Origin: Microcaldota archaeon
GTDB taxonomy: Archaea > Micrarchaeota > Micrarchaeia > Norongarragalinales > UBA8480
DNA: 14,888 bases
NCBI GenBank assembly: GCA_023247085.1
Contig: JAHFHC010000024.1
Location: 1 to 14,888, forward strand
Direction: 5' to 3'
In this document: piece after piece, positions 284 through 14,753 of the stretch
How the letters are laid out: every line of letters begins with the position of its first letter
Numbering within the stretch: the first letter of the stretch is position 1
Notes under the pieces: model-generated
Databases searched by the model: none
The model's input: the letters and a program-made list of their open reading frames with translations, nothing else
Told to the model about the DNA's origin: nothing
Program-made: the position numbers and the translations under genes

Positions 284-304
284 GGTTTCATGGACTCGAC
301 GGGA

Positions 305-449
305 TATTCCGCGCCATGCCTTTTCTTTTCTAAAGAAAAGGCCAGGCGTGGCCAAAAGAAATGAAAACTATTTCATCATTATGGCACATTGCCTTTTCTT
401 TTTAGCGCCTCGCCAGGGTCTCAAACGAACACGTTTGCGGACCAGGCCT
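305..449 (-). other. tRNA-Ala intron 2, T-loop (59/60), 145 nt
   Basis: The exon reads GCGGG-TTCAAA up to 450 and resumes with T-CCCGT at 304. The 5' bulge AAA (451-449) and 3' bulge TAT (306-304), each cut after the second base, give TTCAAAT. The central helix is imperfect (TTC/GAA plus an A-G mismatch), so the exact ends are less certain than for the other introns. Inside are CAAACG/CGTTTG (422-437), ATGAAA/TTTCAT (361-376), the CCTTTTCTTT/AAAGAAAAGG hairpin (319-341) and a free copy of the purine arm (391-405). It is the longest intron in the window, more than twice the size of most others. Confidence 0.75.
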
Positions 450-471
450 TTTGAACCCGCGACCTCCTGCT

Positions 472-533
472 TTTTTGAAAAAGAATTTTTTTCTTTTCGT
501 CAACGTTTTCTTTTTGTAAAAAGAAAAGGTTGT
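472..533 (-). other. tRNA-Ala intron 1, anticodon loop (37/38), 62 nt
   Basis: This is a canonical BHB. The outer helix is the anticodon stem CCTGC/GCAGG and the 4-bp central helix is TTTG/CAAA. The bulges are CAA (535-533) and AAA (473-471), cut after the second base. Most of the intron folds as CAAC-(C)-TTTTCTTTTT paired with AAAAAGAAAA-(C)-GTTG (501-532). A second purine tract (489-498) forms a small hairpin, GAAAAGAA with TTCTTTTTC. Confidence 0.88.
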
Positions 534-585
534 TGCAAAGCAGGCGCGCTACCACTGCGCTACGAGCCCATACTTGTAATTTTTT

Positions 586-712: not shown

Positions 713-2267
<1,555 letters not shown>

Positions 2268-7999: not shown

Positions 8000-8132
8000 T
8001 ATGCCACTTAAGTTAATTCAATCTAAAACCTTACTCCCCTGAGATTATACTGTTCTGGTTCAAAGTAGACAATTCGATTGAATTCAAACCAACTATTTTA
8101 CGAAGGGTCAAATAAGTATGCAGGGGGAGAGA

Positions 8133-8168
8133 TTTTCACTCTCCGTTGGATATTTTTCCGACGGGTTT
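8133..8168 (-). other. tRNA-Leu intron 2, T-loop (59/60), 36 nt
   Basis: This is a canonical BHB once intron 1 has gone. The outer helix is the T-stem GAGAG/CTCTC and the central helix is TTCA/TGAA. The bulges are AAA (8170-8168) and AAT (8134-8132), cut after the second base. The intron body is a hairpin, CCGTCGG with CCAACGG (one mismatch). It has no CTTTTCTTTT module. Confidence 0.88.
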
Positions 8169-8174
8169 TTTGAA

Positions 8175-8239
8175 TTCGAGGAGCATACGGTTTTCTTTTT
8201 CCATCGATGCTTTTTCTTTTCTCAAAAGAAAAAGGCTCG
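8175..8239 (-). other. tRNA-Leu intron 1, between T-stem and T-loop (53/54), 65 nt
   Basis: The central helix is CGAG/CTCG and the intron helix is GAGC/GCTC. The bulges are AGC (8241-8239) and AAT (8176-8174), cut after the second base. The outer helix is absent or weak, so this is a relaxed bulge-helix-loop form. Inside are CTTTTTCTTTT/AAAAGAAAAAG (8210-8234) and a second purine tract whose plus-strand copy is at 8191-8202. Confidence 0.87.
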
Positions 8240-8332
8240 CTCTCGAACCCATACGGGATAAGGTCCTAAGCCTTACGCGTTTGACCAAGCTTTGCTACCC
8301 CTGCAGGTTTTTATAGTGTTAATAGTAGGGAA

Positions 8333-14363: not shown

Positions 14364-14427
14364 TTTTCGTAGCTGGAAAATTTTCTTTTCCCAACAGGCT
14401 TTTCTTTTTTATAAAAAGAAAAGGCTT
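14364..14427 (-). other. tRNA-Gly intron 2, T-loop (59/60), 64 nt
   Basis: The outer helix is the T-stem CCGGG/CCCGG and the central helix is TTCG/CGAA. The bulges are ATA (14429-14427) and AAT (14365-14363), cut after the second base. Inside are CTTTTCTTTTT/AAAAAGAAAAG (14399-14423) and a second purine tract, GGGAAAAGAAAA, whose plus-strand copy is at 14381-14391. Confidence 0.88.
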
Positions 14428-14687: not shown

Positions 14688-14753
14688 TTACCGAAACCTT
14701 TTCTTTTTTGGGCTCAAAGACTTTTTTCTTTTTATAAAAGAAAAAAGGGTTTG
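14688..14753 (-). other. tRNA-Pro intron 1, between T-stem and T-loop (53/54), 66 nt
   Basis: The bulges are AGC (14755-14753) and AAT (14689-14687). The central helix is CCCG/CGGT with three pairs, the intron helix is AAACC/GGTTT, and the outer helix is a short TGA/TCG. Inside are CTTTTTTCTTTT/AAAAGAAAAAAG (14721-14747) and a second purine tract whose plus-strand copy is at 14697-14709. Confidence 0.85.

Follow-up and report, generated by a model that had tools for sequence, protein, structure and literature searches.

The window, by which we mean the whole stretch of DNA that was analyzed (14,888 nucleotides from the genome of a Microcaldota archaeon), carries on its minus strand, from 8304 to 8120, a tRNA-Leu gene with the anticodon TAG in which the T-arm is broken by two introns. 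The acceptor 5' strand, the D-arm, the anticodon arm (TAG), the long variable arm, and the T-stem 5' strand GAGAG (8244-8240) all reside in the first exon. The gene is laid out as follows.

8240-8304, minus strand: exon 1, identified from the sequence and aligned with intron-free and single-intron tRNA-Leu genes of relatives.
8175-8239, minus strand: intron 1, 65 nucleotides at position 53/54, a site that is uninterrupted in the tRNA-Leu(UAG) of G001, a genome of the same genus, and in the genome's own tRNA-Leu(GAG).
8169-8174, minus strand: exon 2, the six nucleotides TTCAAA (nucleotides 54-59), identified from the sequence and by splicing in silico.
8133-8168, minus strand: intron 2, 36 nucleotides at position 59/60, without the dispersed module that is described below; 59/60 introns are also present in G001, in G023, and in the genome's own tRNA-Leu(GAG) and tRNA-Leu(TAA).
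8120-8132, minus strand: exon 3, containing T60, the T-stem 3' strand, and the acceptor 3' strand, identified from the sequence, with the discriminator A at 8119.

ARAGORN calls no tRNA in the whole window, and the Rfam tRNA model scores the unspliced gene at 17.3 bits, under the cut-off of 29. Only 11 tRNAs reach this cut-off across the 92% complete genome (G000), as is expected if most of its tRNA genes are interrupted. The preliminary description of this DNA placed two T-arm introns around the exon TTCAAA at 8174-8169 and proposed that cutting after the second nucleotide of each bulge would yield a standard T-arm. The coordinates proved exact, the same layout recurs in homologues and is therefore not a chance arrangement, and the doubly spliced sequence is called tRNA-Leu(tag) by ARAGORN, which makes no call on the precursor or on either single-intron form. 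Because the joint bases differ from one another, the mature sequence leaves the cut points no room to shift.

Both introns and the six-nucleotide exon are also present in the tRNA-Leu(CAG) gene of the same genome (G000:C36:30196-30380), where all 65 bases of intron 1 are identical to those in tRNA-Leu(UAG), and in the tRNA-Leu(UAG) orthologue of the sister species G002. The 53/54 intron was seen only in these two genomes. The T-arm of tRNA-Leu(UAG) in G001 contains the 59/60 intron only, with GAGAG-TTCAAA unbroken. The genome's own tRNA-Leu(GAG) likewise keeps GAGAG-TTCAAA unbroken and has the 59/60 intron as its sole T-arm intron, as does its tRNA-Leu(TAA). The D-arm of the tRNA-Leu(GAG) gene (L184 1336-1590, G000:C8) is also interrupted, by a long intron in addition to the one at 59/60. 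Single 59/60 introns are found in other families as well, and the T-arm is unbroken in many relatives. Because G001 and other leucine tRNAs of the genome carry only the 59/60 intron in this arm, the exon joints are fixed by comparison. Because relatives keep GAGAG-TTCAAA unbroken, the native arm is GAGAG-TTCAAA-T-CTCTC and the 53/54 intron is the newer of the two.

One could instead read the interruption as a single long intron that extends from 48/49 to just before the GAGAG at 8143-8139, in which case the T-arm would be the 3' hairpin GAGAG-TGAAAAT-CTCTC. This hairpin has a perfect five-base-pair stem and a seven-nucleotide loop, and exon 3 is predicted to fold this way while the precursor is unspliced. 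Its loop, TGAAAAT, however, lacks T55 and C56, which normally contact G18/G19 and which are present in every intact homologue (TTCAAAT or TTCGAAT); moreover, G001 tRNA-Leu(UAG) and the genome's own tRNA-Leu(GAG) use GAGAG-TTCAAA. We consider the single-intron reading very improbable. Alternatively, the locus could be a decayed pseudogene and the true tRNA-Leu(UAG) could lie elsewhere, since the assembly is 92% complete and might lack an intron-free second UAG copy. Against decay, none of the 84 exon positions differs between the tRNA-Leu(UAG) genes of G000 and G002 while 6 of 102 aligned intron positions do, the arrangement is common to two isoacceptors, and no other UAG or CAG copy was found in the assembly. 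Five leucine genes (TAG, CAG, GAG, TAA, and CAA) were each seen there once, which makes a pseudogene less likely still, and the UAG and CAG genes are probably needed, since only one of each was seen. We judge that a decayed gene is extremely improbable, and we treat the locus below as a gene with two T-arm introns.

The following elements surround the cut sites, with an arrow marking each cut.

8242-8245, minus strand: 5' strand of the intron 1 central helix (H1), CGAG (nucleotides 48-51), which overlaps the T-stem and pairs with CTCG at 8180-8177 (precursor probability 0.88).
8239-8241, minus strand: intron 1 5' bulge, AG↓C, identified from the sequence; forming the 5' half of BHB1 costs 2.1 kcal/mol relative to the minimum-energy fold.
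8174-8176, minus strand: intron 1 3' bulge, AA↓T, with no outer helix behind it; forming all of BHB1 costs 4.1 kcal/mol relative to the minimum-energy fold.
8139-8143, minus strand: decoy GAGAG in intron 2, just before TGAA, which pairs with the T-stem 3' strand CTCTC (8131-8127) in the precursor.
8135-8138, minus strand: 3' strand of the intron 2 central helix (H2), TGAA, which pairs with TTCA of exon 2 (8174-8171) in the minimum-energy fold after intron 1 removal.

At the level of sequence, both introns have a 4-bp central helix and 3-nt bulges. Intron 2 combines its central helix H (TTCA/TGAA) with the bulges AA↓A (8170-8168) and AA↓T (8134-8132) and with the T-stem as outer helix h. The T-stem and TTCA/TGAA form the minimum-energy fold once intron 1 is removed, in keeping with the earlier suggestion that the T-stem acts as the outer helix of intron 2. 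The inner helix is not flush but separated by an internal loop, so the motif is an hBH and not the full BHB that had been envisaged. The motif of intron 1 comprises H (CGAG/CTCG), the 5' bulge AG↓C, and an inner helix h' (GAGC/GCTC), but a stable outer helix is missing and the 3' bulge bases pair with exon 1 in the minimum-energy fold. The description of 3-base bulges and a 4-bp helix at both sites holds for intron 2 and for the central helix and 5' bulge of intron 1, but the 3' bulge of intron 1 is weaker than described. A strict hBHBh' with both flanking helices is seen at neither intron; both have the relaxed motif. Relaxed BHB motifs are reported substrates of the epsilon-2 splicing endonuclease of ARMAN archaea (PMC4033280, PMC12397907).

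Two other configurations of intron 1 were tried and rejected. An outer helix between GGGTT in exon 1 and AACCC at the start of intron 2 appears in a constrained fold, but the CAG copy reads AAGCC and the pairing is not conserved. A T-loop-like register, with TTCG/CGAA as the central helix, would not restore the T-stem. BHB1 shows no covariation because the three copies with both introns are closely related. The group I covariance models gave no Rfam match in the window, and by that measure neither intron is a group I intron.

The genome carries genes for both of the enzymes that such introns would call for. The EndA gene (L062 1150-2450, minus strand, G000:C26) consists of two reading frames parted by a run of ten Ns, which is an assembly gap. 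The two frames match ARMAN-2 EndA (4fz2) over residues 12-180 (E 8.7e-43) and residues 198-387 (E 3.7e-82), and the active-site positions corresponding to Y236, H251, and K282 are conserved. By homology, the encoded protein is an ARMAN-type (epsilon-2) splicing endonuclease with a predicted three-unit architecture, and this type agrees with a probable placing of the organism in the Micrarchaeota, among the DPANN archaea. An RtcB ligase is also encoded (E 2e-172).

To evaluate the order of splicing, we used pairing probabilities and constrained folds from ViennaRNA, which leaves out tertiary contacts and proteins. In the precursor, the T-stem and H2 have a probability of 0.00 and H1 has one of 0.88. 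When intron 1 is removed, the T-stem and H2 reach 0.54 and 0.55 and make up the minimum-energy structure, and forcing BHB2 into the precursor carries a penalty of 7.4 kcal/mol. The CAG and G002 copies follow the same trend as the UAG gene, and the trend is kept from 25 to 65 °C, with absolute values that drop with heat. Two predicted pairings block the T-stem in the precursor: that of the intron 1 central helix with G49-A50-G51, and that of the intron 2 GAGAG with exon 3 as a false T-arm. At 37 °C, the probability of this decoy pairing in the precursor is 0.65 for UAG and 0.89 for CAG, and the decoy competes even after intron 1 removal (0.22-0.45 at 37 °C). The decoy region of intron 2, GAGAGTGAAAA, is like the exon segment GAGAGTTCAAA in 9 of 11 places, part of which is explained by the motif's own needs; an origin of the intron segment by duplication of the exon is only suggested by this likeness.

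It had been proposed that intron 1 must leave first because it interrupts the T-stem. The rise of the T-stem and H2 from 0.00 to 0.54-0.55 is consistent with that order, but the interruption alone would not block the stem. In silico, the second motif is unable to form while intron 1 is present, as in forced-order multi-intron tRNAs, and these folds support a predicted order of intron 1 followed by intron 2. An endonuclease that binds locally and tolerates poor motifs might nonetheless remove either intron first. Epsilon-2 endonuclease can act on relaxed motifs (PMC4033280), its binding is independent of the overall pre-tRNA architecture (PMC12397907), and the central helix of intron 2 adjoins its own cut sites. 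Such a free order has to contend with the low probability of H2 and the T-stem in the precursor, which ranges from 0.00 to 0.01 between 25 and 50 °C and does not exceed 0.04 at 65 °C, and we regard a free order as unlikely.

We think it likely that this is a working tRNA-Leu(UAG) gene whose two T-arm introns are cut by the ARMAN-type endonuclease and sealed by RtcB, with intron 1 removed first. From the sequence and its homologues, the joints fixed by comparison, the encoded enzymes, and the predicted folds, we infer the following course of cleavage and ligation in the cell. In the precursor, intron 1 would fold on itself and draw nucleotides 48-51 into its central helix, exon 3 would be held by the GAGAG copy within intron 2, and the T-stem would be unable to form. 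The endonuclease would cut intron 1 at its relaxed BHB, and RtcB would join GAGAG to TTCAAA. The T-stem and the TTCA/TGAA helix could then form to give the hBH substrate of intron 2, which would be cut and sealed second. Intron 1 is probably a recent gain within the genus, with a dispersed intron family as its source.

Intron 1 is mostly made of the sequence of a dispersed module, which is absent from intron 2.

8191-8233, minus strand: dispersed module in intron 1, recognized from pattern matches across the genome and from register coupling.

The module begins with a U-strand at 8233-8224 (TTTTTCTTTT), followed by a loop, an A-strand at 8220-8211 (AAAAGAAAAA), a linker, and a third tract at 8200-8191 (AAAAAGAAAA). 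A general pattern of the module has 38 matches in the genome, compared with 3 when the pattern is read backwards, and is present in 30 of 60 relatives. The copies are located in tRNA T-loops, anticodon loops, and D-arms, in a 16S intron, at intergenic sites, and near tRNA ends. Excising one segment converts 19 of 36 distinct copies into a tRNA recognized by ARAGORN; this tally is rough and counts one trailer and several doubtful isotype assignments. The automated procedure misses about half of the module sites, as many of the tRNAs hold a second intron or a long variable arm. With a similar core in many tRNAs of one genome, intron 1 is a member of a dispersed tRNA intron family, and intron 2 is not.

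Several other copies are found in the window. The 16S rRNA gene has a 66-nt intron with the module at 1552-1617 (minus strand), with a central helix GTAA/TTAC and bulges AA↓A and AA↓T, and splicing gives GGTAAATGTTG. Just downstream of 16S, tRNA-Ala(TGC) (291-569, minus strand) has a module-bearing anticodon-loop intron and a second, long intron at ∼59/60 with the module in the opposite orientation. The modules at 14382-14421 and 14700-14743 (minus strand) adjoin tRNA exons, the first of them in a T-loop (GGTTCGAT...). Outside introns, the module is found ∼60 bases upstream of tRNA-Leu(CAG) (L042 ∼1355, plus strand), just after tRNA-His (L193 ∼1500), and just downstream of the EndA stop codon on the opposite strand. 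The T-tract of the leader and trailer modules could serve as a terminator.

The third tract of the module keeps register with the A-strand of the hairpin. In length, the first A-run of the third tract matches the hairpin's last A-run in 32 of the genome's 36 copies (shuffled mean 12.7, maximum 22) and in 46 of 47 distinct hand-picked strings from other genomes (shuffled mean 14.4, maximum 28), although the copies are related, so these counts are not independent. No coupling of this A-run to the other runs is seen in the genome's own copies. The coupling is that of a mirror register, antiparallel to the purine strand, like a purine third strand or an A-rich minor-groove strand, and it suggests that the tracts may form a triple strand. 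A short outer stem pairs more often than in shuffled sets, with several pair types, in both the genome's own copies and the genome collection. We rejected a plain direct or inverted duplication as the origin of the module, as the third tract mirrors the A-strand of the hairpin, and a mirrored sequence does not arise by copying.

Among the database matches listed, the module occurs in ANME-1, Micrarchaeota, Diapherotrites, Aenigmatarchaeota, some Clostridia, and some Bacteroidota; in these matches only the register counts as evidence because the scan pattern itself specified three tracts. At gathering scores, Rfam returned for 18 module loci no overlapping family except the interrupted tRNA and rRNA genes, and a literature search for the module found no relevant paper. 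Our judgment is evenly balanced on whether intron 1 is a copy of a structured RNA (or DNA) module that has not been described before and that is common in DPANN archaea and ANME-1 and present in some bacteria. Such a module would be a U-rich/A-rich hairpin followed on its 3' side by a second A-tract that mirrors the register of the hairpin's A-strand, as a third strand in a triple helix would, and in this lineage it would have spread within tRNA and rRNA introns as their core.

These findings can be set beside several known systems. The preliminary description called the arrangement remarkable, which is an overstatement: the tRNAscan-SE 2.0 paper already describes tRNA genes in which two or three introns lie so near one another that the second BHB forms only after one of them has gone (PMC8450103). 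Forced intron order is a known phenomenon, and tRNA-Leu(UAG) would be a further tidy example, with a six-nucleotide exon that may be among the shortest. The multi-intron tRNAs of Thermoproteales resemble it in having two or three EndA introns per tRNA and a forced order of removal for close introns (PMC8450103). The present case differs in that it comes from a DPANN archaeon with an epsilon-2 enzyme and has both introns in one T-arm, a six-nucleotide exon, and a decoy T-stem in intron 2. It thereby places heavy tRNA interruption and a predicted forced order outside Thermoproteales, together with an ARMAN-type endonuclease, and offers a natural substrate for asking whether competing helices set intron order. 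ARMAN-1 and ARMAN-2 are among the archaea listed with multi-intron tRNAs (PMC4033280). The ARMAN-2 splicing endonuclease (4fz2, 9w2k; PMC12397907) shares its three-unit epsilon-2 architecture and catalytic residues with the putative enzyme encoded by the EndA gene found here, which is split by an assembly gap.

A 53/54 intron and a preferred order of removal, assessed by RT-PCR, are also features of tRNA-Ile(UAU) of Cyanidioschyzon merolae, which has introns at 12/13, 37/38, and 53/54 (PMC9602550). That organism is a eukaryote, its introns sit in separate arms, and interruption of one intron's stem by another is not reported as the source of the order. The closest parallel to the spread of intron 1 is the transposed tRNA introns of Thermoproteales, which, as Fujishima et al. 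2010 are cited in PMC4033280, have similar sequences in many tRNAs and at many positions. In contrast to the introns in that account, the shared part here is a hairpin followed by a third A-tract in matching register, an element that is also present in a 16S intron, in tRNA leaders and trailers, and at intergenic sites. The module behind intron 1 may help to explain how tRNA introns came to spread among DPANN archaea, and it points to a possible triple-stranded RNA element.
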